From Robiginitalea sediminis (GTDB lineage: Bacteria > Bacteroidota > Bacteroidia > Flavobacteriales > Flavobacteriaceae), in assembly GCF_002198115.1 (NCBI RefSeq), contig NZ_NGNR01000001.1:434001-498000 (forward strand): DNA of 64,000 nucleotides. Direction: 5' to 3'. Numbering within the stretch: position 1 is the stretch's first letter; every line of letters begins with the position of its first letter. The position numbers and the translations under genes were made by a program. Of this stretch, positions 35,592 to 49,195 are shown piece by piece. The notes beneath the pieces are model-generated. The model was not told where the DNA came from. It saw only the letters and a program-made list of their open reading frames with translations, and ran no database searches.

Positions 35592-36151
35592 TAGGAGAAG
35601 ATTAGGGGGAATAACAAATAAATCATGATCATACCGCCGGCAAAAAACCCGATAACGGCAACCAGGGACGGCCATTGCAGGTTACTGAGGCCGGAGATGG
35701 CGTGTCCGGACGTGCATCCCCCGGCATAGCGGGCTCCGAAGCCCACCAAAAAGCCCCCAAGGGCAATCAGGCCAATACTTTTCCAGTTGGTCAGGCTCTC
35801 GGTTGCGTACAATTCCGTGGGCAGGTATGCCGCCCCGGCACTTTCAAACCCCAGGCCCTGCAGTTCCTGCACGGTGTTTGGGTTTATATGTACCGCTGCG
35901 TCTGCAGTAAGGAAGGTTGAAGCGAGAAACCCCCCGATGATGGCGCCGGCCACCACAATGAGGTTCCATTTCTGGCTCTTCCAGTCGAACTTAAAGAATT
36001 CCGATTGCTTGTCTGCCCCGCAGATGGTGCAAAGGGTCCTGAGGTTGGAAGACATTCCGAAGTTCTTGCCTACCAGCAACAACAGCAGCATGACAAAGGC
36101 AATGGCCGCGCCGGAAACATACCACGGCCAGGGTTCATAAATCCATTCCAT
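35591..36151 (-). CDS. YeeE/YedE family sulfur-compound transporter half (PmpA-like)
   Basis: 186 residues. The transporter Cys146 lies in GARYAGGCTSGHAISG, the GGCTSGH motif of YeeE/YedE. The N-terminal part adds a CTIC pair (Cys41, Cys44) not needed for the transporter fold, which might bind a metal. It pairs with the next gene to form one transporter. It follows sqr by 78 bases, with a large palindrome between, and probably shares its operator. Confidence 0.88.
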   Translation of the reverse strand: MEWIYEPWPWYVSGAAIAFVMLLLLLVGKNFGMSSNLRTLCTICGADKQSEFFKFDWKSQKWNLIVVAGAIIGGFLASTFLTADAAVHINPNTVQELQGLGFESAGAAYLPTELYATESLTNWKSIGLIALGGFLVGFGARYAGGCTSGHAISGLSNLQWPSLVAVIGFFAGGMIMIYLLFPLIFS

Positions 36152-36182
36152 TTCGATGGGATTAAATTGGGTTGATTATAAA

Positions 36183-36204
36183 GGCGGGGGGAGCTCCCCC
36201 CGCC
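36183..36204. repeat. 22-bp perfect palindrome between sqr and the YeeE pair
   Basis: The 22 bases read identically on both strands (each arm is GGCGGGGGGAG). In the sqr-pmpAB transcript this would form an 11-bp GC hairpin followed by TTTATAAT, with no long T-run. It may be an attenuator or an mRNA-stability element that lowers expression of the downstream transporter relative to sqr. Confidence 0.7.
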
Positions 36205-36229
36205 CGGTTGGTTTTATCCGTGCCCTTGC

Positions 36230-37477
36230 TCAGACATCCTTGCCTTTCAGCATCTTGTTCCAATACAGGTAGGGCAGTCCGTATTTCTTGAGCATCCACA
36301 ACCTCCAGAGTTCCTTGGAAGAATCCGAGATCATCATCATCTTCAGCTTGGGGTCCGGGGTGAAAGTGTTGTCGTAATCGAATTCGGCCAGGACCATTTT
36401 CCCGTAATCGGTAACAAGCGGGCAGGAAGAGTACCCGTTATAGGCCTTGGTGCCCAGGATATTGCGGGAGCGAAGGAGCTGGATATTATCCACGACCACG
36501 GGAACCTGCTTACGGATGGCCGCACCGGTTTTGGCAGTGGGCAACCCGGCTACATCGCCCAGGCTGAAAACGTTCGGGTATTTGGTATGCTGCAGGGTGT
36601 GTTTATCCACATCCACCCATTTGGATTCGTTTACCAGGGGGGAGTTACGGACACAGTCCGGGGCCACGGAAGGAGGGGCTGTGTGCAGGAAATCGTAGTG
36701 GATCCCCGTGAGGTTCCCATCGGTTTCGGTCTTGATGTCTTTGTGGTTGTGCTCATGCATGTGGTCGGCGAACTCATACCACGCAATGCGGTTGGGCCCG
36801 TCTATCTTGACCAGTTTATACCCGAACCGCAGGTTGATGTCCTTGCGGTCTACCACATCCAGGAGGGTTTTTTTAATTTCAGGCACCCCGAAAATAACTG
36901 TGCCGGGCGTGGCAAACACCACTTCGGTTTTATCGCGTACCCCGGATTTGCGGAAATAGCTTTCGGCCAGGTACATGATTTTCTGAGGGGCTCCTCCGCA
37001 TTTGATCGGGGTGGTGGGCTGGGTGAAAAGGGCAGTCCCCCCTTTGAAGTTCTTCAACAGGTTCCAGGTATGAACCGGGTCGGTGTAATTGCTGCAAACC
37101 ACATCTTTGTCCAAAACGGCCCCGAGGCCGGGTACCAGGCTCATATCGTAGACCAGGCCCGGGGCCACCACGAGATAATCGTAGGTGAGGTCCCCGCTGG
37201 AAGCGGTGCTTACGGTATTTTTCTCCGGATCGAACCCGGTGGCGGCATCCTTGATCCAGGTAGCGCCCTTGGGCATTACAGAGGCCATCGGGCGGGCGGT
37301 TTTATCGAAGTTGAATGTGCCGGCGCCCACCAGGGTCCAGGCCGGTTGGTAATAATGGGTGTCTGCAGGCTCTACAATGCCCACTTTCATCTTTTTATCC
37401 GCATTCAGAAGGTTCGCGGCGGTCATGATGCCACCTGTTCCCCCTCCGATAATTAAAACTTCATAATGAGTATCCAT
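36230..37477 (-). CDS. sqr: Sulfide:quinone oxidoreductase (mitochondrial-type FAD flavoprotein)
   Basis: 415 residues. FAD is held by YEVLIIGGGTGGIM (residues 5-18). The redox cysteines of the type II enzyme are present: Cys160 in PIKCGGAPQKIMYLAE and Cys352 in SSCPLVTDYGKMVLAEFDY, with additional Cys128 and Cys275. The strongly SQOR-like segments around both cysteines are the main evidence. It oxidises sulfide to sulfane sulfur on a thiol acceptor and passes electrons to quinone at the inner membrane. It starts the minus operon with the two transporter halves and is controlled by the operator at 37529-37546. Confidence 0.92.
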   Translation of the reverse strand: MDTHYEVLIIGGGTGGIMTAANLLNADKKMKVGIVEPADTHYYQPAWTLVGAGTFNFDKTARPMASVMPKGATWIKDAATGFDPEKNTVSTASSGDLTYDYLVVAPGLVYDMSLVPGLGAVLDKDVVCSNYTDPVHTWNLLKNFKGGTALFTQPTTPIKCGGAPQKIMYLAESYFRKSGVRDKTEVVFATPGTVIFGVPEIKKTLLDVVDRKDINLRFGYKLVKIDGPNRIAWYEFADHMHEHNHKDIKTETDGNLTGIHYDFLHTAPPSVAPDCVRNSPLVNESKWVDVDKHTLQHTKYPNVFSLGDVAGLPTAKTGAAIRKQVPVVVDNIQLLRSRNILGTKAYNGYSSCPLVTDYGKMVLAEFDYDNTFTPDPKLKMMMISDSSKELWRLWMLKKYGLPYLYWNKMLKGKDV

Positions 37478-37500
37478 CGTTAGGTGTTTTTAGAACTCCA

Positions 37501-37546
37501 CTAAATTACACAACCTGAAACCAATACTTTGTAACAATGGTTACAA
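37501..37546 (-). promoter_or_regulatory. Crp/Fnr-type operator and -7 box of sqr
   Basis: Read on the minus strand: TTGTAACCATTGTTACAA (37546-37529), 20 bases, then TAATTTAG (37508-37501), one mismatch from TAnnTTTG. The ATG is 23 bases further. Both outer arms are perfect. Confidence 0.8.
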
Positions 37547-37587
37547 TGGCACCGATGTCAATAAAATTAGGGGGTTGCACCTTTTTC

Positions 37588-37631
37588 GCTGCGGATGGGG
37601 CCAGAGGGGTTTCCCTTTCCCCGGGCGCAGC
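37588..37631. repeat. Inverted repeat between the sqr and sulfite-oxidase promoters
   Basis: GCTGCG (37588-37593) is complementary to CGCAGC (37626-37631). Inside are GGGG/CCCC arms and an AGGGG-TT-TCCCT core. Both predicted start sites lie outside it, so it is not in either leader. It may bend DNA or bind another protein. Confidence 0.4.
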
Positions 37632-37643
37632 AAATATTCCGGT

Positions 37644-37689
37644 TTGTAACATTGGTTACAAATTCAATTGCTGAAAAGCACTATGTTTA
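37644..37689 (+). promoter_or_regulatory. Crp/Fnr-type operator and -7 box of the sulfite-oxidase operon
   Basis: TTGTAACATTGGTTACAA at 37644-37661, exactly 20 bases, then TATGTTTA at 37682-37689 (7 of 8 to TAnnTTTG). The ATG is at 37720. The operator is the most perfect of the six, extending to a 20-bp palindrome with the flanking T and A. Confidence 0.82.
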
Positions 37690-37719
37690 AAACCTTCTAC
37701 CACGTATAACCTTTAAGGA

Positions 37720-38940
37720 ATGGAAAGACGCAAATTCGTTCAGAGATCCGGGCTGGGTGCGCTCAGCGCCCTACTGGGCGCCGAGATTGTCTTCGGCAAC
37801 CGCCTCCCGGAAGGCCTGCCCCTGCTGGGGTTGCAGGACCCGGACCCCTTTAAGATGTTCGGCAAAGACCCCCAAATGGTGGTCCTGAACGACAAACCCT
37901 GGAACATGGAGGCCCTGGCACACCTGCTGGATGACCCCATTACGCCCAACCGGTTTATGTTTATCAGGAACAACGGAAAAATCCCGGAATCCATAGACGT
38001 GGCCAACTGGACCCTCACCTTCGACGGGGAAGCGGTTCGGAGCCCGAAGACCTATACCCTGAATGATCTCAAATCCCGATTTCCACAACACACCTACCAG
38101 CTCACCCTGGAGTGTGGGGGGAACGGGCGGAGCGAATTTGACCCGCCTGCCAAGGGCAACCAATGGACGGTAGGGGCTGTTTCCTGCGCCGAGTGGACCG
38201 GGGTGCGCCTGAGCGACGTCCTGAAGGATGTGGGCATCACCGCCAACGCGGTGTATATTGGCTACCATGCGGCGGACACCCACCTCAGCGGCGACCCCAC
38301 CAAGGAACCCATCTCCCGGGGCATTCCCATAGACAAGGCCATGCAGGAGGAAACCCTCCTCGCCTTTAAAATGAACGGGGAGGACATCCCGCTGGCCCAC
38401 GGGCACCCGTTGCGCCTGGTGGTCGGCGGCTGGCCTGCCTCCACCTCTGGGAAATGGCTCACCGGGATCAGCGTGCGGGACCGGGTCCACGACGGTGAAA
38501 AAATGACCGGGTCTTCCTATCGCGTCCCCTGCGAAACGGTTGCTCCCGGAGAAAAAGTTGCCGATGAGGATATGTGCATCATAGAATCCATGCCCGTTAA
38601 ATCCTTGATTACCTCTCCCAAAACAGGGGCAACCCTGCCCCTGGGCCGCAGCCTGTCCTTCCGGGGGCATGCCTGGGCCGGGGACCTGCAAGTGTCGCGG
38701 GTGGATTATTCCATAGACTTTGGCAGCACCTGGAAGTCCTGCAATCTGGAGCAACCGGCAAACCGCCTGGCCTGGCAACATTTTTCAGGCACCGCTTCCT
38801 TCCCCAAGAAAGGCTACTACGAACTGTGGGTGCGGGCCACCGATAGCAACGGCAAGGCACAACCCATGGTACTCCCGGGTTGGAACCCCAAAGGGTACCT
38901 GAACAACGCCTGCCACCGAATCGCCCTAAAAATCACCTGA
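37720..38940 (+). CDS. Molybdenum-dependent sulfite oxidase/dehydrogenase (SorA-like)
   Basis: 406 residues. An N-terminal RRKFVQRSGLG motif predicts Tat export with its cofactor. The molybdenum thiolate ligand is Cys132 in LTLECGGNGRSEF, followed by the SUOX-type segment GHPLRLVVGGWPASTSGKWLTGI. The C-terminal immunoglobulin-like dimer domain covers about 290-400 (WAGDLQVSRVDYSIDFG). It oxidises sulfite to sulfate in the periplasm and passes electrons to a cytochrome c. That partner is the next gene, whose start overlaps this stop as TGATG. Confidence 0.9.
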   Translation: MERRKFVQRSGLGALSALLGAEIVFGNRLPEGLPLLGLQDPDPFKMFGKDPQMVVLNDKPWNMEALAHLLDDPITPNRFMFIRNNGKIPESIDVANWTLTFDGEAVRSPKTYTLNDLKSRFPQHTYQLTLECGGNGRSEFDPPAKGNQWTVGAVSCAEWTGVRLSDVLKDVGITANAVYIGYHAADTHLSGDPTKEPISRGIPIDKAMQEETLLAFKMNGEDIPLAHGHPLRLVVGGWPASTSGKWLTGISVRDRVHDGEKMTGSSYRVPCETVAPGEKVADEDMCIIESMPVKSLITSPKTGATLPLGRSLSFRGHAWAGDLQVSRVDYSIDFGSTWKSCNLEQPANRLAWQHFSGTASFPKKGYYELWVRATDSNGKAQPMVLPGWNPKGYLNNACHRIALKIT

Positions 38941-39422
38941 TGGAGCCCGAACACGATTTTCATAAAAGCGCCCGGGCAGTATCGGGCTTGCTGGCCATGA
39001 TCTTCGGGTTTTTCCTGGTCATTGCAGCCGTGTTGCTGTATGTCATGATAGACCCCGGCATGACGGCCTTCCGTTCCGAACCGGAACTGGCACAACAGCA
39101 AGCCGCCCCGCCTGCGGAGGACGATTTTGACAAGGTGGAGGACGGGATTCACGTCCGCACGGGCTTTGTGGCGGAAGAAGGCTATATGACTGTGGTAAAC
39201 AACTGCACCAACTGCCACTCGGCCCTGCTGGTGACCCAGAACCGCATGTCCCGGGAGAGCTGGGAAGCCACCATCCGGTGGATGCAACAGACCCAGAACC
39301 TCTGGGACCTGGGCAAGAACGAAGAAATTATCCTGAACTACCTGGCCACCTACTACGCCCCGGAAAAGAAAGGGCGGAGGCAAAACCTTCAAGATATAGA
39401 ATGGTATGTTCTGGAGAATTAG
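38940..39422 (+). CDS. Membrane-anchored monoheme cytochrome c (SorB-like)
   Basis: 160 residues starting at the TGATG overlap with the sulfite oxidase, which fixes the start at 38940 rather than the longer frame. One hydrophobic anchor covers about residues 14-38. The heme-c motif is Cys89-Thr-Asn-Cys92-His93, with Met103 or Met115 as a possible sixth ligand. It should accept electrons from the sulfite oxidase and deliver them toward the respiratory chain. It overlaps the rhodanese gene by 17 bases. The SorB name is by analogy with other SorAB pairs. Confidence 0.85.
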   Translation: MEPEHDFHKSARAVSGLLAMIFGFFLVIAAVLLYVMIDPGMTAFRSEPELAQQQAAPPAEDDFDKVEDGIHVRTGFVAEEGYMTVVNNCTNCHSALLVTQNRMSRESWEATIRWMQQTQNLWDLGKNEEIILNYLATYYAPEKKGRRQNLQDIEWYVLEN

Positions 39423-40368
39423 CATAGGGCTGCTCGCCGCGTTCACTTTGGCCTGCAAAGGTCCTTCAGGACCGGAACCGGGTACAGAGCCACAGGCCGT
39501 TTCCGGGCCTGAGGCCTACGCCGTGCCCGAAGCCCTCGTGGAGGCCAGCCAACTGCAATCCCTTCTGGGAAAGGAACATATAGTGGTGGTCGACTTCCGC
39601 AAACGGGAGGACTTCGACAAGGGGCACATCCCCGGAGCCATCCCTATGTGGCGCTCCGATATCGAAGCGGCCGAAAGCCCAATCCCGGGCATGATGGCAT
39701 CCGCCCCTGAAATGGAGGCCCTCTTTTCCCGCCTGGGCATCCACCCGGCAGACACCCTCCTGGTTTACGACGACCAGGCCTGCTGTGACGCGGCCCGGCT
39801 CTGGTGGGTCCTTCAGGTCTATGGCCACGGCAAAGTCAGGCTGCTTAACGGAGGCCTGCATGCCTGGCAGGAGGCAGGCGGGGCACTGACGGCGGACTAT
39901 CCGCCGCGGCCCGCTTCCCAATTCCGGTTTGAAGGGTCCGGGAACCCCGGGTTACGAATCGGCAAGGAAGAACTGCACCAGAACCTGGGAACCCCAGGGT
40001 TTATCGTCATCGATTCCCGCTCGGCGGAAGAGTACAGCGGGCTCCGGCAGAAAGCAGGGGCCGCGGCAGCCGGACGGATCCCTACCAGCACCAACAGGGA
40101 CTGGGCCGGGGCCACGAATTACCATGGAGACAAAAAATTCAGGAGCACCAGGGAGCTCAAAGCCCGGTTTGCCTTTGCCGGCCACCCGGACTCTGCAAGG
40201 GTGGTGGCGTACTGCCATTCCGGGGTGCGTTCGGCTCACACCAGTTTTGTGCTGACGCAACTTCTGGGGTACCCAAGCGTCCGGAATTATGACGGTTCCT
40301 GGTTGGAGTGGAGCGCTACGGAAGGCGCCCCGATTGAAATAGATAGTGTGACAAAAATGTTTAAGTAG
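39406..40368 (+). CDS. Two-domain rhodanese (thiosulfate/3-mercaptopyruvate sulfurtransferase), lipoprotein
   Basis: 320 residues. A lipobox LAAFTLAC (Cys17) predicts a lipid-anchored, exported protein. The first rhodanese-fold domain (about 45-165) lacks the catalytic Cys. The second (about 185-305) has Cys270 in VAYCHSGVRSAH, a six-residue thiosulfate-type loop. It moves sulfane sulfur between thiosulfate or persulfides and thiol acceptors, here in the periplasm beside the sulfite oxidase. The start overlaps the cytochrome gene by 17 bases. Confidence 0.87.
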   Translation: MFWRISIGLLAAFTLACKGPSGPEPGTEPQAVSGPEAYAVPEALVEASQLQSLLGKEHIVVVDFRKREDFDKGHIPGAIPMWRSDIEAAESPIPGMMASAPEMEALFSRLGIHPADTLLVYDDQACCDAARLWWVLQVYGHGKVRLLNGGLHAWQEAGGALTADYPPRPASQFRFEGSGNPGLRIGKEELHQNLGTPGFIVIDSRSAEEYSGLRQKAGAAAAGRIPTSTNRDWAGATNYHGDKKFRSTRELKARFAFAGHPDSARVVAYCHSGVRSAHTSFVLTQLLGYPSVRNYDGSWLEWSATEGAPIEIDSVTKMFK

Positions 40369-40370
40369 TT

Positions 40371-41249
40371 ATGGAAAAGTATTTGGAAGCCTTTGGCAAC
40401 GCATTTATGGGGACCCTGAACTGGACCTGGAAGTCCATCCTTTTTGAGGTGCCCTGGTATACGAATTACTTCTGGGGTCTGGTGCTTATTTCCCTGGTGG
40501 TTTGGGGGTTGGAAATCCTCTTCCCCTGGCGTAAGAACCAGTCTATCTTCCGGAGGGATTTCTGGCTGGATGCCTTTTACATGTTCTTCAATTTCTTCCT
40601 CTTCGCCATCGTGATCAGCGGGGTTTACCGGATGCTGCAACTCGCCTTCGGGGAACTCGGCATTACGGCAAAAAGCCTGGCCATAGTGGACATCGCTGCC
40701 TGGCCTGCCTGGCTGCAGCTGCTCGCATTCTTCATTGTGCTGGACTTTGTACAGTGGTTTACCCATATCCTCCTGCACAAATGGCCGGTGCTGTGGCAGT
40801 TCCACAAGGTGCACCACAGCGTTAAGGAGATGGGCTTTGCGGCGCACCTGCGCTACCACTGGATGGAGAATGTGCTGTACAAACCCCTGAAGACGTTTGG
40901 GGTGATGATCCTGGGCGGGTTCGAGCCGGAACAGGCGTATATCGTGCACTTTGCCGCCATCGCCATCGGCCACCTGAACCATTCCAACATCAAGCTGACC
41001 TATGGCCCGCTGAAATACCTGCTGAACAATCCGGTGATGCACCTCTACCACCATGCATACCACCTGCCCAAAGGCAGTTACGGGGTCAATTTCGGGATTA
41101 GCCTGAGTATCTGGGACTACATCTTCGGTAAAAATTACATCCCGGAAGACAGCGGGACCATCCCACTTGGTTTCCCTGGCGACGAGGACTTCCCCCAGGA
41201 CTTCCTTCACCAGAATATCTACGGTTTTTCCAAGCCCAAGGATGGATAG
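40371..41249 (+). CDS. Sterol desaturase/fatty acid hydroxylase family membrane protein
   Basis: 292 residues with four to five hydrophobic segments. The three di-iron histidine clusters are H132-xxx-H136 (THILLH), H145-xx-HH149 (HKVHH) and a later HHAYH near residue 225. The family inserts oxygen or double bonds into lipids. It is the last gene of the sulfite-oxidase operon, two bases after the rhodanese. Its role in sulfur oxidation is unclear: it may remodel membrane lipid or quinone-related isoprenoids. It converges on the next gene with three bases between stops. Confidence 0.85.
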   Translation: MEKYLEAFGNAFMGTLNWTWKSILFEVPWYTNYFWGLVLISLVVWGLEILFPWRKNQSIFRRDFWLDAFYMFFNFFLFAIVISGVYRMLQLAFGELGITAKSLAIVDIAAWPAWLQLLAFFIVLDFVQWFTHILLHKWPVLWQFHKVHHSVKEMGFAAHLRYHWMENVLYKPLKTFGVMILGGFEPEQAYIVHFAAIAIGHLNHSNIKLTYGPLKYLLNNPVMHLYHHAYHLPKGSYGVNFGISLSIWDYIFGKNYIPEDSGTIPLGFPGDEDFPQDFLHQNIYGFSKPKDG

Positions 41250-41252
41250 GGC

Positions 41253-41756
41253 TCAATAGACCTTTTCCCCGGCCTGTAACCAGACAGACCAGGCGGCGCT
41301 GTAGGCGTGGGTCCGGGTTGTAGGCCCGGAAGCATCCCGTACCGGGTTGCCCTGGTTTACCCATTCAAAAATCCCCCCGTAGAGGTTGTACACGCGGGAA
41401 TAACCCTCCTGTTCCAGGCGTCGGGCAATACGCTCGCTGCGGTACCCTACCGAACAGTAGACCACTATGGGCTGGTCTTTCGGGATGCCCTCCAAACGGG
41501 TAAGGTCAAAGGATTTGTAGCCCACCCACCGGGCTTCGGGAATATGGCTCACCTGGAATTCCTCCCATTCCCGGGCATCCAGGTAATACGCTCCCTGAAG
41601 CTGCCTTGCGGCCGGAACATCGGTTTCCGGGACCATATGTGAGAGGAGGGTGTCCAGAAGGGTGCCGAAGAGCGGGTTGCCCACCTCCTGGGCCTGTGCG
41701 GCGGTAGCCCCGAAGAGGCCCAAGGCCGCCAGGACCGATTTGATCTTGTTCTTCAT
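41253..41756 (-). CDS. Exported single-domain rhodanese
   Basis: 167 residues from the ATG at 41756. The longer frame upstream reads into the racemase and lacks a signal; this start gives the signal peptide VLAALGLFGATAAQAQ. The active Cys101 lies in VVYCSVGYRSERIA, a sulfurtransferase loop. It is the third gene of the DUF3365-racemase-rhodanese run, four bases after the racemase. As a periplasmic rhodanese it could supply or remove sulfane sulfur outside the cell. Confidence 0.87.
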   Translation of the reverse strand: MKNKIKSVLAALGLFGATAAQAQEVGNPLFGTLLDTLLSHMVPETDVPAARQLQGAYYLDAREWEEFQVSHIPEARWVGYKSFDLTRLEGIPKDQPIVVYCSVGYRSERIARRLEQEGYSRVYNLYGGIFEWVNQGNPVRDASGPTTRTHAYSAAWSVWLQAGEKVY

Positions 41757-41760
41757 AACG

Positions 41761-42447
41761 CTAGTCCCTTTCCAGGATAAAATCGACAGCCATTTCGGCA
41801 TGCAGGTCTGTGGTAGCCAAAAGAGGGACATCCACATCCTCTTCCCGAATAAGCAGGGGCAGTTCCGTGCATCCCAGGATAATCCCATCGGCCCCCCGGT
41901 CCCGCAGCAGGCCAATCTGGGCTTTGTAAAACTGCCTGGCCTCCTCGGTAAACTTCCCGTGCGTCAGTTCCCGGGAGATAAAGTAATGGGATTTGGGGAT
42001 GGAAGGCTCCTCCGGGATAAGGGTTTCAATCCCGAATTCAGTCTGGAGCCGGCCGGGGATAAAATCGCCGGTCATCGTTGGCTTGTTCCCCAACAGCCCC
42101 AGGGTTTTGAGCCCCCTGGAAGCCGCCGCACGCCCGGTTGCATCCGCAATGTGCAGGATGGGGATCCCGATGCGGGGCTGGACGTGCTGGTATACCATAT
42201 GGGGGGTGTTGGCACAGATGACAATCCCCTGGGCCCCATGCTGTTCCAACAGCCGCGCCACCTCGAGGTATTTGGCGCGGATTCGGTCCCCGTCCTGGGA
42301 TCGCATGACCTCTATGTTAATACTGTGCAGGACCAGTTCCGGGTTGCCCTGGGTCCCGATATGGCGGGCCACCCCTTCGTTTATCATCCGGTAATAGGCC
42401 TCCGTGGCATGCCAGGAAGTGCCCCCGATCATTCCGAGAACTCGCAT
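41761..42447 (-). CDS. Aspartate/glutamate racemase family protein
   Basis: 228 residues from the start at 42447 (MRVLGMIGGTSW), chosen because the family begins there. Both catalytic cysteines are visible: Cys78 in VICANTPHM and Cys193 in ILGCTELPLLI. The fold is the two-domain PLP-independent racemase, and an aspartate or hydantoin-like substrate is possible. Its presence between a heme protein and a rhodanese is odd. It may be a passenger gene or process a D-amino acid thiol derivative. Tight spacing (11 and 4 bases) supports one transcript. Confidence 0.87.
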   Translation of the reverse strand: MRVLGMIGGTSWHATEAYYRMINEGVARHIGTQGNPELVLHSINIEVMRSQDGDRIRAKYLEVARLLEQHGAQGIVICANTPHMVYQHVQPRIGIPILHIADATGRAAASRGLKTLGLLGNKPTMTGDFIPGRLQTEFGIETLIPEEPSIPKSHYFISRELTHGKFTEEARQFYKAQIGLLRDRGADGIILGCTELPLLIREEDVDVPLLATTDLHAEMAVDFILERD

Positions 42448-42458
42448 ACGCTTACTGA

Positions 42459-43037
42459 TTATTGGTCCGAAGGTACCGAAACCTTCCACAACCCGCGCAG
42501 TTGGCCGGGCTGGTACCCGACGGCCTCATCGGCCGGATAGCGGTCTGCTAAAATGCGCAATACCCCTTCCGGGATATCGGCCCCGGGCGTCCCGTGGCAT
42601 TTCATGCAAAGGTCTGCGGTCTGGATGGGGAAGTAGTAATGGGTCTGGCTCCCTTCGGTAATTTCCAGGAGGGTTTCCATATCGGCCCCTTCCTGGCGCA
42701 ATTGCGCCATAAGGGCAATCTCGGCCTCGCTGGCTATATTTTCAGGGTTCCGGGCCCTGTCGGTGACCCGGCGGATGGCCACGCCGTGCTTTTGGGCAAC
42801 ACTGTCGGTGATGGGTAGTGCGCGAACCTTACAAAAGTCTATGGCTCCTTCCGGGCCCGATGCTGCTATTATTTGCTGCAGCGTGGACCCCAGGGCTACC
42901 TGGGTCTCCATGGCCATTTTGCCGGCATCTTCACGCCCTATCGCCGTTTCGGCTTCCGGAGCGGGTTCGGGTTTGGGGGTCTCCTTACACTGGGCCAGGA
43001 CAAGTGCCAGGGCCAAGAGAAATACGGTCTTTTTCAT
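42459..43037 (-). CDS. DUF3365 c-type heme protein, lipoprotein
   Basis: 192 residues. A lipobox ALVLAQC (Cys17) follows a short hydrophobic stretch. A Tll0287-like DUF3365 domain covers about 45-190, with a heme-c motif Cys144-Met-Lys-Cys147-His148 in DLCMKCHGTPG. Such domains are sensors or electron carriers of unknown detail. It is exported, so it could sense sulfide or carry electrons in the periplasm. It heads the racemase-rhodanese run. Its promoter lies about 170 bases upstream of the ATG, with a terminator between. Confidence 0.85.
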   Translation of the reverse strand: MKKTVFLLALALVLAQCKETPKPEPAPEAETAIGREDAGKMAMETQVALGSTLQQIIAASGPEGAIDFCKVRALPITDSVAQKHGVAIRRVTDRARNPENIASEAEIALMAQLRQEGADMETLLEITEGSQTHYYFPIQTADLCMKCHGTPGADIPEGVLRILADRYPADEAVGYQPGQLRGLWKVSVPSDQ

Positions 43038-43093
43038 TCCAGGTGGTTTTACAGGGACAACCCGTTTAAAGCGTGGGCATCCAAGGGGGTGAT

Positions 43094-43122
43094 AAAAAGA
43101 AAGCGGCCCGTATTGGGGCCGC
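43094..43122 (-). terminator. Intrinsic terminator inside the DUF3365 leader
   Basis: On the minus strand GCGGCCC (43122-43116) pairs with GGGCCGC (43109-43103) over six bases, followed by TTTCTTTTTATC. It stands between the operator-driven promoter and the DUF3365 gene and is about 57 bases upstream of the ATG. It could also end the transcript of the upstream MBL-rhodanese gene. Confidence 0.75.
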
Positions 43123-43145
43123 TCTCCTCACTAAAAACAATCAAC

Positions 43146-43181
43146 TCAACCATTTCCTCCGGGCAGGCCCGGGATTTTCAT
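43146..43181 (-). CDS. Possible 11-residue leader peptide
   Basis: An ATG-to-TGA frame encoding MKIPGLPGGNG within the structured leader. The ATG sits inside the P3 stem (43171-43184). A purine stretch (GAAGGG) lies just before it, although Bacteroidota rarely depend on Shine-Dalgarno pairing. It might be a regulatory peptide or only chance. Confidence 0.25.
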   Translation of the reverse strand: MKIPGLPGGNG

Positions 43182-43205
43182 CCCTTCGTCAGTGGGCTCC
43201 CCCGG
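43159..43205 (-). ncRNA. Candidate structured leader RNA upstream of DUF3365
   Basis: Read on the minus strand, three nested helices are possible. P1 is CCGGG (43205-43201) with CCCGG (43163-43159). P2 is GCCC (43197-43194) with GGGC (43170-43167). P3 is GGGAT (43184-43180) with ATCCC (43175-43171), closed by a GAAA tetraloop. P2 and P3 would stack on the 3' side, with a nine-base ACTGACGAA bulge between P2 and P3 on the 5' side. It begins close to the predicted transcript start, and the terminator at 43094-43122 follows. I do not recognise it as a known riboswitch class. Confidence 0.4.
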
Positions 43206-43215
43206 ATGATATACT

Positions 43216-43261
43216 CAAAAATAGAACGCCTGTAGCCGCCAGTCAGTAACCGATGTTACAA
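43216..43261 (-). promoter_or_regulatory. Crp/Fnr-type operator and -7 box of the DUF3365 leader
   Basis: Minus strand: TTGTAACATCGGTTACTG (43261-43244), 20 bases, then a perfect TATTTTTG (43223-43216). The right arm is weaker than the left outside the GTTAC core. The start site would be near 43210. Confidence 0.8.
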
Positions 43262-43294
43262 AGCCTTCTTTTTTGCGATTTTTAACATTTCCGC

Positions 43295-44710
43295 CTACAG
43301 GGTAGACGGGCAAACGTAATCCGTTACGGGAAGGCCAGCTTCCTTGATGGCGTCGAAACCTCCCAGGATATTCACCAGGTTGTGGATCCCGCGACTCTTC
43401 AGAATAGAAGCGGCAATCACAGACCGGTAGCCTCCGGCGCAATGCAGGTAAAAGACCTCTTCGGCCGGAAACTCCGCCAGGTGGTTGTTGAGGAAATCCA
43501 GGGGGGTGTTCTCGGCGTCTACCAAATGTTCGGAAAGGTATTCGCTCTCTTTTCGCACATCAAACACCTTCAGCTCTTCTTCTTCCTCGGCCATACGATC
43601 CTTCAGGCGGTCAGCTGAAACCGAGCTGACGGTATCGTACTCCAGGGACCCCAATTTCCAGGCGTCAAAACCGCCCTCCAGATACCCCAGCGTATTGTCG
43701 AAGCCCACCCGGGAAAGGCGGATCACAGCCTCTTCTTCCCGCCCCTGAGGGGCTACCAGCAGGATGGGTTGTTCGGTATCGGCCACCAGGGCCCCTACCC
43801 AGGGGGCAAAACTGCCATCCAGGCCAATAAAGATGGAACGGGGGATATGGCCTTTTACAAAGTCTTCCTCATTGCGCACATCCAGGATGAGCGCACCGGC
43901 CTCGTTGGCAGCTGCCTCAAAGGCCCGTGGGCTCAGGGGGCGTGTGCCGCGCTCCAGGACGGCATCCACGTGCTCATACCCCTCCTTGTTCATTTTTACG
44001 TTTAGCGGGAAGTATTTGGGCGGAGGCAACAGCCCTTCGGTAACCTCAGCGATAAACTCCTCCCGGGTCATGTCTGCCCGCAGGGCGTAATTGGTTTCCT
44101 TCTGGTGTCCCAGGGTGTCCACCGTTTCCTTCATCATATTCTTACCGCAGGCAGATCCGGCTCCGTGGGCCGGGTAAACCACCACCTCGTCTGAGAGGGG
44201 CATGATCTTGTTCCTGAGGCTGTCGTACAGGGTGGAGGCCAGTTGCTCCTGGGTCATGTCCGCTGCCTTCTGGGCCAGGTCCGGGCGGCCTACATCGCCG
44301 AGAAACAGGGTGTCCCCGCTAAAGATAGCGTGGTCCTTACCATTCTTGTCCCGAAGCAGGTAGGTGGTGCTTTCCATGGTGTGCCCGGGGGTGTGAAGGG
44401 CCACAATAGTCAGGTCTCCCAGGGGGAATTCCTGCCCGTCGGTGGCGATTATGGCATCGAACTTGGGGTTGGCCAGGGGGCCATAGACAATGGGCGCCCC
44501 GGTTTTGTCCGAAAGGGTCAGGTGGCCGCTCACGAAATCGGCGTGGAAGTGGGTTTCAAAGATGTATTTAATCTTTGCCCCATCCTGGCGTGCCCGTTTA
44601 ATATAGGGCCCAACCTCCCGTAAGGGGTCAATAATGGCGGCTTCTCCCTTACTCTCTATGTAATAGGCTCCCTGTGCCAGGCAGCCGGTATAAATCTGCT
44701 CAATAGTCAT
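43295..44710 (-). CDS. CstB-like persulfide dioxygenase-rhodanese fusion, copy 1
   Basis: 471 residues in three parts. The N-terminal metallo-beta-lactamase domain (about 1-235) has THFHADFVSGH (His54, His56, Asp58, His63), His110 (HTPGH), Asp133 (SGDTLF) and His182 (PAHGAGS), the mononuclear iron ligands and second-shell residues of ETHE1/CstB-type persulfide dioxygenases. The first rhodanese-like domain (about 260-360) has APQGREEE instead of a catalytic Cys. The last has Cys424 in LHCAGGYRS. This matches the layout of Staphylococcus aureus CstB. It would turn thiol persulfides into sulfite or thiosulfate. Confidence 0.9.
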   Translation of the reverse strand: MTIEQIYTGCLAQGAYYIESKGEAAIIDPLREVGPYIKRARQDGAKIKYIFETHFHADFVSGHLTLSDKTGAPIVYGPLANPKFDAIIATDGQEFPLGDLTIVALHTPGHTMESTTYLLRDKNGKDHAIFSGDTLFLGDVGRPDLAQKAADMTQEQLASTLYDSLRNKIMPLSDEVVVYPAHGAGSACGKNMMKETVDTLGHQKETNYALRADMTREEFIAEVTEGLLPPPKYFPLNVKMNKEGYEHVDAVLERGTRPLSPRAFEAAANEAGALILDVRNEEDFVKGHIPRSIFIGLDGSFAPWVGALVADTEQPILLVAPQGREEEAVIRLSRVGFDNTLGYLEGGFDAWKLGSLEYDTVSSVSADRLKDRMAEEEEELKVFDVRKESEYLSEHLVDAENTPLDFLNNHLAEFPAEEVFYLHCAGGYRSVIAASILKSRGIHNLVNILGGFDAIKEAGLPVTDYVCPSTL

Positions 44711-44726
44711 AGTTGCATCTTTTGGT

Positions 44727-44772
44727 CAAAAATACCGCCGGGACGCAGCCCCCACAGTAACTCCGGTTACAC
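44727..44772 (-). promoter_or_regulatory. Crp/Fnr-type operator and -7 box of CstB-like copy 1
   Basis: Minus strand: GTGTAACCGGAGTTACTG (44772-44755), 20 bases, then a perfect TATTTTTG (44734-44727), 16 bases before the ATG. It lies just past the terminator of copy 2, so the two copies are separate transcription units. Confidence 0.8.
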
Positions 44773-44776
44773 AACC

Positions 44777-44807
44777 AAAAAACCCCGGCCGTTAACGGCC
44801 GGGGTTT
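44777..44807 (-). terminator. Intrinsic terminator of CstB-like copy 2
   Basis: Minus strand: a perfect inverted repeat spanning 44807-44780 (arms AACCCCGGCCGTT and AACGGCCGGGGTT) followed by TTTT. It is the strongest hairpin in the region. Confidence 0.9.
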
Positions 44808-44826
44808 CAAAGCGTTGGTCACTGCC

Positions 44827-46245
44827 CTATAACAGGGTAGTGGGGCATACGTAGTCGGATTTCTCAAGACCCGATTCCTTGATCTCGTCGAAACCGCCAA
44901 TGACATCCACAAAGTTGTCCCACCCCCTTTGCTTCAGGATGGAGGCGGCAATCATACTCCGGTACCCGCCCTGGCAATGCAGGACAAAGGGTTTGTCTTT
45001 CGGAAATTCCGCCAGATGCTGGTTGATTTCATTGAGGGGGATGTTTGCCGCGTCGATGAGGTGTTCCGAATCGAATTCGCTTTTCTTGCGCACATCAATT
45101 ACAAGAGGAGCCTTTCCGTCCTTCACCTGCTTCTCGAGTTCCGCCACGGTAATCCGTCCGGTCTGTTCCACATCCTTACCGGACTTCGCCCAGTTCTCAA
45201 AACCACCCCGGAGGTATCCCAGGGTATTGTCGTACCCAACGCGGGAGAGGCGCGTTACCGCTTCCTCTTCTTTGCCGGCGTCGGTAATGAGCAGGATAGG
45301 ATGTTGTACATCGGGGATCATTTCCCCCACCCACTGGGCAAAATTACCCTCAAGGCCAATATTGATGCTATTGGGGACAAACCCTTTGGCGAATTCCTCT
45401 GCATCCCGGGTGTCCAGGACCAGGGCCCCGCTCTCCTCAGCTGCGGCTTCGAAAGCTGCAGGGTCCAGCGGCTGGGTGCCCCGTTCCATAATTTCATCCA
45501 GGGATTCGTACCCTTTGATGTTCATCAGGACATTCTGGGGGAAGTACCCGGGAGGCGTGGTAAGCCCGGTCAGGAGTTCCTTTATGAATTCTTCCTTGGT
45601 CATATCGGCCCTCAGCGCGTAATTCACTTTCTTCTGGTTGCCCAGGGTGTCGGTGGTTTCCTTGCTCATCATTTTGCCACAGGCAGAGCCTGCCCCGTGG
45701 TTCGGGTATACGATAAGGTCGTCGGAAAGCGGCATGATCTTATTGCGAAGGGAATCGAAGAGGTGGCCGGCGAGCTTCTCCTCGGTAAGGTCGGAGACCA
45801 CGTGCTGGGCCAGGTCCGGGCGGCCCACATCCCCAATGAAGAGGGTGTCGCCGGTAATGATCCCGTGTTCCTTCCCTTTGTCGTCAATAAGCAGATAGGT
45901 GGTGCTTTCCATGGTATGGCCGGGGGTATGGATCACCTTTACCTTGTAATCGCCCACCTGGAAGACCTGCCCATCTTCTGCGACCAAGGCCTCGTACCCC
46001 GGTTTGGCAATGGGTCCGAATACAATCTCGGCACCCGTCTTCTTGCGAAGGTCCAGGTGGCCGCTCACGAAATCGGCGTGGAAGTGGGTTTCAAAAACGT
46101 ACTTGATTTCGGCATTATCGATCTGGGCCCGATCGATATAGGGCTGCACTTCGCGCAGCGGGTCGAATACGGCAGCCTCCCCCTTACTTTCAATATAGTA
46201 AGCGGCGTGTGCCAGGCATCCGGTATAGATTTGTTCTACTTTCAT
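44827..46245 (-). CDS. CstB-like persulfide dioxygenase-rhodanese fusion, copy 2
   Basis: 472 residues, co-linear with copy 1 (43295-44710) and sharing the same motifs at the same positions: THFHADFVSGH at 53-63, the HTPGH, TGDTLF and NHGAGS segments, an inactive middle rhodanese (DAGKEEE), and Cys424 in LHCQGGYRS. Both copies end in a YVCP(S/T)TL tail with a further Cys. The persistence of two full-length copies, each with its own operator, suggests different substrates or expression rather than decay. It is monocistronic, with a strong terminator. Confidence 0.9.
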   Translation of the reverse strand: MKVEQIYTGCLAHAAYYIESKGEAAVFDPLREVQPYIDRAQIDNAEIKYVFETHFHADFVSGHLDLRKKTGAEIVFGPIAKPGYEALVAEDGQVFQVGDYKVKVIHTPGHTMESTTYLLIDDKGKEHGIITGDTLFIGDVGRPDLAQHVVSDLTEEKLAGHLFDSLRNKIMPLSDDLIVYPNHGAGSACGKMMSKETTDTLGNQKKVNYALRADMTKEEFIKELLTGLTTPPGYFPQNVLMNIKGYESLDEIMERGTQPLDPAAFEAAAEESGALVLDTRDAEEFAKGFVPNSINIGLEGNFAQWVGEMIPDVQHPILLITDAGKEEEAVTRLSRVGYDNTLGYLRGGFENWAKSGKDVEQTGRITVAELEKQVKDGKAPLVIDVRKKSEFDSEHLIDAANIPLNEINQHLAEFPKDKPFVLHCQGGYRSMIAASILKQRGWDNFVDVIGGFDEIKESGLEKSDYVCPTTLL

Positions 46246-46267
46246 AAGGTTAGATTTTATGTTGCCT

Positions 46268-46313
46268 CTAAAATAACAGGTAGTTTCCGGGCCTTCAGTA
46301 ACTTAGGTTACAC
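46268..46313 (-). promoter_or_regulatory. Crp/Fnr-type operator and -7 box of CstB-like copy 2
   Basis: Minus strand: GTGTAACCTAAGTTACTG (46313-46296), 20 bases, then TATTTTAG (46275-46268), one mismatch from consensus. The ATG is 22 bases further. The right arm lies inside the stop codon region of the SulP gene (its TAA is at 46310-46308), so operator and coding sequence overlap. Confidence 0.8.
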
Positions 46314-48038
46314 TAAGCCCCGGGCTGTCTGGGTGGAGATCCGGTGCTCCACATCGGACTTTTTGGAGTCGGCCACGCAATGCTCATAGGCTTCGTAGGT
46401 GCGGACAAACAGGTTGTCTGCCCCTATCTCGTCTATCAGCCCGCTGCTGTGGATGATGTCTCGGGTAGGGCCAATGGCTCCTGCTACCAGGAAACGGATC
46501 CCTTCGGTGCGGAGTTCCTTGACCAGGGCCTTGAGCATAAACACGGCAGAACTGTCTATATAGTTGATGGCCTCCGCGTTTAATACGACGTAGCGCAGCC
46601 CTGTACCCTTTTTGGCCATCTCCCTGCGCAGCTGGGTCCGGAAATAGTCCTTATTGCCAAAAAAGAGCTGGCCGTCGAAGCGCAGGATCACAAATTCCGG
46701 GAATTCCTCGATGTCCTCCCCAAAGCGGTTTACATTCTTGAAATAGTCGGTGCCCCGGATACGCCCCAATACCGCAATGTGCGGTTTGGAAATCCGGTAT
46801 ACCAGCAACAGAAGGGAAAAAAGGACGCCCAGCAGAATGCCTTCCTTGATGCCCACCCCAAGGGTCAACAGGAAGGTGGCCACCAAAAGGACAAATTCGT
46901 CCTTACGGTTCTTCCAGAGCTGGCGCGGATACTCCAGGTCTATCAGGCCAAAGACGGCCACCATGATAATGGAAGCCAGGACGGCATTGGGCAGGTAGTA
47001 GAACGCCGGGGTTAGGAAGAGCAGGGTTAACCCCACTACCAGGCTGCTGAAAACAGCGGCCATCCCGGTACGGGCCCCGGCCTGGTCGTTAACGGCAGTG
47101 CGGGAAAAGCCCCCTGTGGTAGGGTAGCTCTGGAAAAGGGACCCCACAATATTCGACATCCCGAGGGCGATGAGTTCCTGGTTGGCATCCACCCGGTTTT
47201 CCCCCCGTTTTTCCTCCACGGCCTTAGCCACTGAGATGGCTTCCATAAAGGCAATTAATGCCAGGGCAATGGCTATGGGGAAGAGTTCGGAAATGCGGTC
47301 CGGGTTTACTTCGGGAATCCGGAAGGAGGGCAAGCCGCCCGGGACCTCCCCCACAATCCTGACGCCGAGCTCCTGCCAGCCAAAAACAGAAACCGCCACG
47401 GTGCCCAAAACCACAGCAACCAGGGCTGCAGGCACCTTAGGGGCCACTTTCTTCAATCCTTTGATGAGCACAATCCCCACGATACCTATCCCCAGGGTAA
47501 GCAGGTGGGTATCGCCCAGGGTAGCTGCTGCGTTAACCAGCAATTCCTGGATTCTGTTGCTGCCGGCAATGTCGGTGCCCAGCAGGTGTTTGAGCTGGCT
47601 CAGGCCGATGATTATGGCCGCGGCCGAGGTAAATCCACTGATCACCGGACGCGAAAGGAAGTTCACCAGGAAACCCATCCGCAAAAGTCCGAAGGCCAGC
47701 TGTATGCCTCCCATAAACAGGGCCAGGAAGACGGCCATGGCAATGTATTCCTCTATCCCGGAAAGTGCGAGGGCGCCCAGGCCAGAAGCCACCAGGAGGG
47801 AATCCATGGCCACCGGGCCCACGGCCAGCTGGCGGGAGGTCCCGGTTAGGGCGTAGATGATCTGGGGGACCAGGGCGGCATAGAGCCCGAATACGGGCGG
47901 CAAACCGGCAATCATGGCATAGGCCATCCCCTGGGGGATAAGCATGATCCCCACGGTTAGCCCAGCGCCGAGATCGCCCCCGAGGTACGCCTTCTTATAA
48001 GAGGGAAGCCATTCCAGGATGGGGAGGTAGCGTTTCAC
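46308..48038 (-). CDS. SulP family anion transporter with STAS domain, copy 1
   Basis: 576 residues. The SLC26/SulP N-terminal signature is visible as LTVGIMLIPQGMAYAMIAGLPPVFGLYAA (residues 27 onward), with about twelve hydrophobic segments to residue 420. A C-terminal STAS domain covers about 445-560 (INYIDSSAVFMLKALVKEL). It transports sulfate, bicarbonate or similar anions. In this operon sulfate or thiosulfate is the natural guess. The start overlaps the Crp/Fnr stop as ATGA. No terminator is seen before the copy-2 dioxygenase promoter. Confidence 0.92.
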   Translation of the reverse strand: MKRYLPILEWLPSYKKAYLGGDLGAGLTVGIMLIPQGMAYAMIAGLPPVFGLYAALVPQIIYALTGTSRQLAVGPVAMDSLLVASGLGALALSGIEEYIAMAVFLALFMGGIQLAFGLLRMGFLVNFLSRPVISGFTSAAAIIIGLSQLKHLLGTDIAGSNRIQELLVNAAATLGDTHLLTLGIGIVGIVLIKGLKKVAPKVPAALVAVVLGTVAVSVFGWQELGVRIVGEVPGGLPSFRIPEVNPDRISELFPIAIALALIAFMEAISVAKAVEEKRGENRVDANQELIALGMSNIVGSLFQSYPTTGGFSRTAVNDQAGARTGMAAVFSSLVVGLTLLFLTPAFYYLPNAVLASIIMVAVFGLIDLEYPRQLWKNRKDEFVLLVATFLLTLGVGIKEGILLGVLFSLLLLVYRISKPHIAVLGRIRGTDYFKNVNRFGEDIEEFPEFVILRFDGQLFFGNKDYFRTQLRREMAKKGTGLRYVVLNAEAINYIDSSAVFMLKALVKELRTEGIRFLVAGAIGPTRDIIHSSGLIDEIGADNLFVRTYEAYEHCVADSKKSDVEHRISTQTARGLV

Positions 48039-48667
48039 AGGTCCAGGATTTGGATGTAGTTGCGGTGCAGCTCAATCTTGCCCATCTGCTCCAGTTTCTT
48101 GAGCAGTCGGGAAATCACCACCCGCGAGCTGTGCAGGTCATAGGCGATTTCCTGGTGGGTGTTGCGGATAGTGTTGTCCTCATTGACCCGGGCCTTGTCC
48201 TTAAGGTACTTGACCAGCCGCTCGTCCATATTCATAAAGGCAATGCTGTCTATGGTTTGGAGCATTTCGTTCAGACGGTTGTTGTAGCTCTCAAAAACAA
48301 AGTTGCGCCAACTCCGGTACTTGGCCGTCCACTCCTCCATTTTGCGGATCGGGATCATGATCAGGCGGGCGTCAGTTTCGGCAATGGCGCGGATTTCACT
48401 GCGGCTCTGCCCCATACAGCAGCTCATGGTCATGGAACAGGTGTCTCCCTGTTCCAGGTAGTACAGCAACAGCTCATCCCCTTCCGAGTCCTCCCGGAGA
48501 ATCTTGATCACTCCGGAGATCAGCAGGGGCATGCCCTTAATATACTCTCCGATCTCCATGAGCTTGTGTCCGGCCGGCACTTCCCTGAATGTCCCAACCT
48601 GGGCAATTTCGGCCAGCAGGCCTTCTTCGAATTGGTTTCCGTAGCTTTCCCTGAGTTCCTGAATCAT
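48035..48667 (-). CDS. Crp/Fnr family transcriptional regulator
   Basis: 210 residues. A cyclic-nucleotide-binding-like beta roll covers about 10-115, a long dimer helix about 125-145, and a winged helix-turn-helix about 165-205 (THQEIAYDLHSSRVVISRLLKKLEQMG, longer than quoted families' core). Three cysteines cluster at 77, 83 and 84 (TCSMTMSCCMG), where the effector site would be. An Fnr-type N-terminal iron-sulfur cysteine set is absent. It is the only regulator in the sulfur island and the best candidate to bind the six shared operators, one of which lies upstream of its own operon. Confidence 0.92.
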   Translation of the reverse strand: MIQELRESYGNQFEEGLLAEIAQVGTFREVPAGHKLMEIGEYIKGMPLLISGVIKILREDSEGDELLLYYLEQGDTCSMTMSCCMGQSRSEIRAIAETDARLIMIPIRKMEEWTAKYRSWRNFVFESYNNRLNEMLQTIDSIAFMNMDERLVKYLKDKARVNEDNTIRNTHQEIAYDLHSSRVVISRLLKKLEQMGKIELHRNYIQILDL

Positions 48668-48672
48668 AGCGA

Positions 48673-49062
48673 CTATTTGACTTGGTTGGCGATCTCCCGG
48701 TCGTATTTGAAAAAGAAGTTGGCCCAGATGGACTTTGAAACGGCCCCGATCCAGGGCATCAGGAGGACGAGCACCCCTACAATAGACCCGAAAATGGCCC
48801 CTACCCCAAGGTCTAACCCAAAGATAAGGATAAGCATATAGACCGCGACGCCCACGGCAACCCCAACGGCATAGGAGACGTACATGGATCCGTAGTAGAA
48901 ACTGGGCTCAATGCGGTACTTCAGGGCACACTTCGGGCAGGTCTCCCGCACCTTGTTCATCTGGCCCAGGTCATAGGGGTGGCTTTCCAGGAATGCCCCC
49001 TGGTGACACCTGGGGCATTTCAAAAACAGGATACTGTAGAGTTTGCTGCCTTTGCCAATCAT
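48673..49062 (-). CDS. DUF983 family zinc-ribbon membrane protein
   Basis: 129 residues. A zinc ribbon made of Cys16-Cys19 (CPRC) and Cys42-Cys45 (CPKC) precedes two hydrophobic segments (about 55-77 and 80-102). DUF983 proteins are conserved in many bacteria and lack a fixed function, although some lie near cytochrome oxidase assembly genes. Here it leads the regulator-SulP operon and carries its operator. The 5-base gap to the regulator implies co-translation. Confidence 0.87.
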   Translation of the reverse strand: MIGKGSKLYSILFLKCPRCHQGAFLESHPYDLGQMNKVRETCPKCALKYRIEPSFYYGSMYVSYAVGVAVGVAVYMLILIFGLDLGVGAIFGSIVGVLVLLMPWIGAVSKSIWANFFFKYDREIANQVK

Positions 49063-49081
49063 TCTGTTGTGAATTTACGCC

Positions 49082-49127
49082 CAAAGATACCGAATCGGGA
49101 CGGCGACCTTTGTGACTTTTGTTACAA
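49082..49127 (-). promoter_or_regulatory. Crp/Fnr-type operator and -7 box of the DUF983-regulator-SulP operon
   Basis: Minus strand: TTGTAACAAAAGTCACAA (49127-49110), 20 bases, then a perfect TATCTTTG (49089-49082), 19 bases before the ATG. Only the core GTCAC departs from the others. It suggests that the regulator acts on its own operon. Confidence 0.8.
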
Positions 49128-49195
49128 TCCGCCTCCGGGGTCCTCCCGGCGCGGGATTTTGGTATCTTTAAACCTCTGACCAGCACTTGTAACCC

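Follow-up and report, generated by a model that had tools for sequence, protein, structure and literature searches.

A stretch of 64,000 nucleotides from the genome of Robiginitalea sediminis (contig NZ_NGNR01000001.1, positions 434,001 to 498,000; hereafter the window) contains a cluster of genes with predicted roles in sulfide oxidation, persulfide handling, sulfite oxidation and anion transport, together with the gene for a Crp/Fnr-type regulator, P0001. Six copies of one palindromic operator accompany these genes, each lying exactly 20 nt from a TAnnTTTG-like promoter box. This arrangement suggests that the six operators are probably class II activator sites of P0001, with a reactive sulfur species as the most likely inducer. 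Gene names in the window come from Pfam and NCBIfam matches; those to the sulfide:quinone reductase SQR and to SorA are strong, yet fall under the NCBIfam cut-offs.

Organization of the cluster and its operators

A motif search of the window recovered all six operators where a sequence-only reading of this DNA had placed them, and the spacing proposed there, exactly 20 nt between the 18-bp site and the box, holds in all six (Table 1). The ten core bases of GTAAC-N4-GTTAC are exact in five of the six operators, again as proposed. The full 18-bp operator TTGTAACNNNNGTTACAA, described as shared, is exact in just two, with mismatch counts of 0, 0, 2, 3, 3 and 1. Three of the boxes are perfect, as that reading had it (TATTTTTG twice and TATCTTTG), and the others (TAATTTAG, TATGTTTA and TATTTTAG) are each one base off, so that all six boxes, rather than four, lie within one base of the consensus. 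Operator 5 shares six bases with the 3′ end of the SulP frame.

Table 1. Operators, predicted transcript and genes of the cluster, in window coordinates.
Feature	Position	Strand	Description
Operator 1	37529–37546	−	Upstream of SQR-like gene 36230–37477 (−); box TAATTTAG at 37501–37508, one base off
Operator 2	37644–37661	+	Upstream of sulfite-dehydrogenase-like operon from 37720 (+); box TATGTTTA at 37682–37689, one base off
Operator 3	43244–43261	−	Upstream of predicted leader or small RNA of about 120 nt and Tll0287-like gene; box TATTTTTG at 43216–43223, perfect
Operator 4	44755–44772	−	Upstream of CstB-like gene 43295–44710 (−); box TATTTTTG at 44727–44734, perfect
Operator 5	46296–46313	−	Upstream of CstB-like gene 44827–46245 (−); box TATTTTAG at 46268–46275, one base off
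Operator 6	49110–49127	−	GTCAC in one arm; upstream of DUF983-regulator-SulP genes; box TATCTTTG at 49082–49089, perfect
Predicted terminated transcript	43094–43211	−	Small RNA or attenuated leader; start set by rule, 5 nt past the box
SQR	36230–37477	−	Sulfide:quinone-reductase-like flavoprotein; match to the NCBIfam type III SQR model scores under its cut-off
Sulfite-dehydrogenase-like operon	37720–40368	+	Molybdoprotein, SorB-like cytochrome (weak match), rhodanese protein
Tll0287-like (DUF3365) protein	42459–43037	−	
CstB-like protein	43295–44710	−	Metallo-beta-lactamase fold and two rhodanese stretches
CstB-like protein	44827–46245	−	Metallo-beta-lactamase fold and two rhodanese stretches
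SulP-family anion permease	46308–48038	−	With STAS domain
Regulator P0001	48035–48667	−	Crp/Fnr type, 210 aa; C77-x5-C83-C84; recognition helix SRVVISR
DUF983 protein	48673–49062	−	First gene downstream of operator 6

Chance expectation and distribution in the genome

The density of sites in the window is well above expectation. Searching for the 18-mer at up to three mismatches returned eight matches, six of them the operators; 100 shuffles averaged 1.23 matches and never exceeded 4. When operator, spacing and box were combined into one composite and scanned across the genome (3.3 Mb in 15 contigs), eight places matched at up to one mismatch, and six of these were the window sites. The other two precede an OEP/HlyD/AcrB operon (C10:58523) and a thioredoxin-like protein (C8:183799-183842). 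At two mismatches, composites appear before thioredoxin (C1:829092) and peroxiredoxin (C10:54993) and at the C8 site on the opposite strand, which brings the sites beyond the window to thioredoxin, peroxiredoxin, OEP and the thioredoxin-like gene. A further two-mismatch composite (C10:58347) has the core GTGAC-N4-GTCAC; the 127-aa frame behind it matches no known family and is followed by a TonB receptor gene. Allowing up to three mismatches gives 27 places in the whole genome and 24 with the reversed control, which is background level, so that composite matches are meaningful only when close. The expectation that such sites would be confined mainly to sulfur genes is borne out by the six of eight close matches in the cluster, and is widened by relatives, which add thioredoxin, peroxiredoxin, cydA and efflux genes.

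The C10 region of the same genome (L116:13000-13600) was also seen to hold three operator-like sites, GTGACnnnnGTCAC, GTAACnnnnGTCAC and GTAACnnnnGTTAC, between the TonB receptor side and the OEP/HlyD/AcrB efflux operon.

Conservation of the spacing in relatives

Our comparison of 40 relatives, the source genome included, found a match to the regulator in 33. With 17 spacings allowed, the scan gave 61 composite matches against 5 for the reversed control; 51 of them have exactly the spacing of the window, 7 differ from it by one base and 3 fall elsewhere. Perfect composite sites occur in 26 of the 33 genomes with a regulator match and in none of the 7 without one, a co-occurrence confounded by descent, since six of these seven genomes belong to other families.

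A second set comprised 80 named loci, taken from among the listed matches of a named-genome scan with a 13-row alignment (more exist) and chosen around the regulator. In these loci, 115 perfect boxes stand at a spacer of 20 nt, and every other spacer from 5 to 35 nt has none or one. Exact cores are followed at 20 nt by a box with at most one mismatch in 208 of 231 cases, while each other spacing between 12 and 28 nt accounts for 1 to 9. An operator-box pair, with one core mismatch allowed, is present in 77 of the 80 loci. Control palindromes show at most one perfect box at any spacer, with two exceptions. At up to one mismatch, these exceptions give 4 perfect boxes at 20 nt and 2 at 11 nt for GTTAC-N4-GTAAC, and 14 at 20 nt for GTGAC-N4-GTCAC; at this tolerance both palindromes include sites one base off the operator.

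Promoter geometry

According to the available text of a transcriptome study of Flavobacterium psychrophilum, the TAnnTTTG box occupies positions −12 to −5 (PMC9723704). With a fixed spacer of 20 nt, this published position places the palindrome at −50 to −33 and its centre at −41.5. Both marks of a class II promoter, an operator centred at −41.5 and the lack of a −33 element, are present in the geometry derived from this box position and in the lack of a conserved element between operator and box. The class II activator geometry put forward in the sequence-only reading is well supported by the spacing in all six window sites and by the spacing counts at orthologous loci. Promoters of the sigma-70 type, tried as a further candidate, were found 6 times against 6.8 expected, and were set aside.

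The 243 sites of the named loci refine this picture. Selection of the sites included the box itself, and the gap between operator and box carries at most 0.32 bit at any position. The upstream arm of the operator reads ATGTAAC; 3′ of GTTAC, T (62%) and G (61%) stand where the palindrome would have A and T. This asymmetry of the downstream arm may be the remnant of a −33 element beneath the edge of the operator. In the examples printed for these sites, the first start codons often lie 14 to 30 nt past the box, and some lie farther.

An operator spanning −50 to −33 could also serve a repressor, and P0001 might then sit over the −33 region and be released by sulfide or persulfide in the manner of SqrR, CstR and BigR; the known sulfide regulators are mostly repressors in the available text of one review (PMC9774590). 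This reading is very unlikely, given that no separate −33 element is left for a promoter to function without an activator and that a repressor would not require a spacing so exact to the base.

Genes behind the operators

The genes that follow the 243 sites indicate what the regulon would serve. In 209 cases the site precedes one of 17 reference genes with sulfur, thiol-redox, efflux or cluster functions. The first frame best matches a CstB-type dioxygenase at 56 sites (CstB1 38, CstB2 16, a like dioxygenase 2), TauE at 35, DUF983 and the regulator at 17 each, rhodanese at 15, SQR at 14, peroxiredoxin at 13, a fatty-acid-hydroxylase-fold protein at 10, SulP at 8, a Tll0287-like protein at 7, SorA, CydA and OEP at 5 each, and YeeE and thioredoxin at 1 each. 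Another 24 first frames are unmatched, nine of them being a small membrane protein that starts MKKNMG or MEKNMG, and 10 sites have no frame. A regulon of sulfide and persulfide detoxification genes is a feature of persulfide-responsive regulators, and the predicted regulon of P0001 has it.

Outside the neighbourhood of the regulator, 27 regions in relatives hold 31 sites, 23 of which also precede reference genes. These comprise thioredoxin (five sites in four genomes, and a different thioredoxin in G023), OEP (6), peroxiredoxin (3), cydA (2) and DsrE (2), with one site each for rhodanese, YeeE (at 19 nt), TauE and a lactamase-fold/rhodanese protein. Of the remaining eight, one precedes an HMA-domain protein, four precede frames without assignment (one of them scanned against a library) and three have no frame behind them. 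The spacer of the cydA operator is 21 nt in L271 and L285 (genomes G007 and G010) and 20 nt in five named loci.

The regulator P0001

That the cluster encodes a Crp/Fnr regulator, as the sequence-only reading had it, is well supported. P0001 combines a domain of the cyclic-nucleotide-monophosphate-binding type with a Crp-type helix-turn-helix, and both Pfam models (PF00027 and PF13545) score above cut-off. Fold searches match CRP, FNR and NtcA, with 3DV8 and CRP on top, and by sequence the closest solved relatives are 3DV8, NtcA and CRP.

In CRP, Glu72 contacts cAMP. The cysteine motif C77-x5-C83-C84 of P0001 aligns to the CRP segment that holds this residue, with Met79 at the place of Glu72, and in this feature P0001 departs from a cAMP receptor of the CRP type. 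Across 38 aligned rows, C77 is present in all, C83 in 30 and C84 in 28, and the three cysteines are invariant in 41 close orthologues.

Recognition position 181 and the sister paralogues

In CRP, positions 180 and 181 are tied to the bases that are read, and HcpR2 proteins carry Pro at 181, or Ser or Gln in named exceptions (available text of PMC1274295). P0001 has Val at this position, by CRP numbering, as do 32 of the 38 aligned rows; the remaining six have Glu and form a supported clade on the tree that includes a paralogue from the source genome, L117. This second Crp/Fnr protein (L117:8983-9651, C9) is 35% identical to P0001, and its gene is directly followed by a GTGAC-N4-GTCAC site, a 20-nt spacer, the box TACATTTA and a small membrane protein.

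The Glu-181 branch tends to adjoin GTGAC rather than GTAAC operators. In five of its six members a site with the 20-nt spacing stands right after the regulator gene (GTGAC-N4-GTCAC in four, GTGAC/GTTAC in one), and the accompanying boxes are perfect in four and one base off in the source genome; the 3-kb locus of the sixth, L244, contains none. GTGAC composites gave 10 matches in nine genomes, nine of them at 20 nt, against one for the reversed control. A sister-clade protein is listed in only four of these nine genomes, and G010, G018, G020, G022 and G023 are without one. A strict code linking Val to GTAAC and Glu to GTGAC is weakened by these five relatives, by the Glu-181 protein of G037, which has both GTGAC/GTTAC and GTAAC/GTTAC sites nearby, by the two changes that the Glu-181 label needs on the tree, and by the missing site in L244.

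These paralogues raise the question of whether another Crp/Fnr protein, and not P0001, mainly binds the sites in vivo. They adjoin sites with the same 20-nt geometry, the C10 region of the source genome holds both GTAAC and GTGAC sites, and GTAAC and GTGAC sites do not divide neatly between the two proteins, as the GTGAC composites without a listed sister-clade protein indicate. Their own neighbouring sites are, however, mostly of the GTGAC type, while the Val-181 protein is encoded within the GTAAC cluster and, in 17 named loci, directly behind a GTAAC site of its own, which makes binding chiefly by a paralogue unlikely.

A predicted leader or small RNA and other features of the cluster

Operator 3 has no gene directly behind it; its product would seem to be either a terminated small RNA or an attenuated leader. 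The predicted transcript of about 120 nt ends in a 14-bp hairpin and a U-rich tail, roughly 55 nt upstream of the Tll0287-like start. Just 5′ of the hairpin, a stretch of 22 nt is identical in 7 of 10 genomes of the genus, and the region upstream of it is variable; the stretch is not in the pieces fetched from G002, G003 and G005, and at up to one mismatch it occurs in 1 of 299 sampled genomes of the family, that of the window itself. Compared with 200 shuffles, the copies of the window and of G007 fold better than all and that of G004 better than all but one, whereas 62 of 200 shuffles fold as well as the piece from G008, which is cut before the end of the hairpin. A peptide encoded at the 22-nt stretch was considered and discarded, the preceding ATG being missing in G008. 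An Rfam scan of positions 36000 to 50000 gave three matches, all far under the gathering scores, and a search for targets by complementarity returned 3 places, the RNA itself included, against 3 for the reversed control, so that none is proposed.

Three further features of the window were recorded. A strong terminator-like hairpin on the minus strand (44779-44808) separates one CstB-like gene from the other, its end lying just short of operator 4. A sulfur transporter of the YeeE/YedE type (35178-36151, minus strand) consists of two overlapping half-length frames, a split that is kept in relatives. Two frames of 111 and 296 aa (41307-42540, plus strand) have no Pfam family; their position is conserved in relatives of the genus, where they are 34-48% identical.

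Proposed mechanism and weighing of the evidence

The regulon and its geometry are strongly supported by the spacing and target counts, and most likely represent an activator regulon against reactive sulfur that extends across the Flavobacteriaceae. Binding by P0001, the start sites, activation rather than repression, and a persulfide signal are what we infer from them. A dimer of P0001 would bind ATGTAAC-N4-GTTACTG-like DNA at −41.5, take the place of the −33 element and assist sigma-A polymerase at the TAnnTTTG box. It would thereby turn on SQR for sulfide oxidation, the CstB-like proteins for persulfide handling, sulfite oxidation, SulP anion transport and its own operon. Targets beyond the cluster would be the thioredoxin-like gene, thioredoxin, peroxiredoxin and the efflux operon. 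The order of the pathway, as deduced from the protein families, would run from SQR through the persulfide dioxygenase-rhodanese and the sulfite dehydrogenase to anion transport. The inducer would most likely be a persulfide or polysulfide, sensed by Cys77 with the help of Cys83 and Cys84 in the loop that serves cAMP in CRP.

Several observations weigh against this interpretation. Perfect composite sites are missing from 7 of the 33 relatives with a regulator match; among the named loci, six have no exact core in the flanks examined and three have no operator-box pair. The exact core, present at seven places in the genome, five of them in the cluster, is not enriched genome-wide (7 against 12 for the reversed control), so the signal consists of clustering and spacing, not of core abundance. 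On the side of the protein, four of the 32 Val-181 rows (L101, L104, L110 and L113) have neither C83 nor C84, and L101 retains a perfect site before SulP/CstB genes. The AlphaFold model of P0001 has a mean predicted local distance difference test score (pLDDT) of 82.8, with values under 50 at residues 79-89, where the cysteine loop is disordered; the loop geometry in the model is therefore not reliable. Finally, a general thiol or oxidant signal would also fit the targets thioredoxin, peroxiredoxin, cydA and efflux.

This last point leads to the most serious alternative, which remains the less probable one, namely that P0001 has this regulon and geometry but responds to a general thiol oxidant, to disulfide stress, to nitric oxide or to oxygen status. 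Besides these targets, it would account for the presence of C77 in the sister regulators too, whose adjoining gene in the source genome encodes a small membrane protein, and for the absence of C83 and C84 in a few relatives. The commonest targets, dioxygenase-rhodanese, rhodanese, TauE and SQR, speak for sulfur instead, in loci that were picked around the regulator. Considering the target set and the cysteines together, a sulfane-sulfur signal acting through the cysteine loop would be the most economical explanation.

If P0001 is indeed such an activator, the cluster provides a candidate activator together with its operator and predicted regulon, and the promoter rule is strict enough for targets and starts to be predicted across a large marine family exposed to sulfide. 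The Val and Glu paralogues, with their differing site preferences, would offer a natural test of DNA specificity in the Crp/Fnr family.

Comparison with known systems

The sequence-only reading had noted a resemblance to HcpR-like sites, and as far as the motif is concerned this was correct: the operator has the HcpR2 consensus GTAACnnnnGTTAC (available text of PMC1274295), and both regulators share the Crp/Fnr fold family. HcpR is described as an NO-responsive Crp/Fnr protein that binds heme (PMC1274295, PMC12750200). By the features tested, P0001 is not HcpR. HcpR2 has Pro at 181 and serves hcp, whereas P0001 has Val, its targets are sulfide-oxidation and thiol-redox genes, and no match to an hcp (Prismane) gene was found in the genome, a search that was positive in 5 of 14 control genomes. 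In addition, the P0001 profile listed 60 PDB sequences at E ≤ 1, and none of them is a chain named HcpR, in a PDB copy that may lack that structure. An NO-responsive activator of the HcpR type is accordingly the least probable of the readings considered, despite the identical consensus.

The persulfide and sulfide sensors CstR, SqrR/BigR and FisR (PMC9774590) resemble the system proposed here in that cysteines govern the expression of sqr, persulfide dioxygenase and rhodanese genes, and belong to other families (CsoR, ArsR and sigma-54 activators, respectively), unlike the Crp/Fnr protein described here. No Crp/Fnr sensor is named among sulfur sensors in the available text of that review. In open PMC text, a Crp/Fnr regulator that responds to sulfur was likewise not found, in Bacteroidota or elsewhere, with the phrase "crp fnr", which may miss the slash spelling; Crp and Fnr as separate words with persulfide or sulfide quinone gave none either. 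It is conceivable, although we would put it at somewhat short of even chances, that P0001 represents a CRP branch undescribed in the searched papers, which would combine persulfide-sensing cysteines in the old cAMP pocket, a rigid class II regulon across the Flavobacteriaceae, Glu paralogues leaning to GTGAC and a small RNA in Robiginitalea. A Crp-type persulfide sensor would then add a new fold to the known sulfur sensors.

The closest solved relative, the Crp/Fnr protein 3DV8 of Eubacterium rectale (E = 8e-21, 27% identity, closest also by fold), has cysteines aligned with C77 and C83 of P0001. In Escherichia coli, CRP and FNR act as class II activators from a dimer site centred at −41.5. 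The system proposed here resembles them in this position and in the Arg residues at 180 and 185 of the helix-turn-helix, and departs from them in having a cysteine loop instead of Glu72, Val at position 181 and the TAnnTTTG promoter of Bacteroidota.

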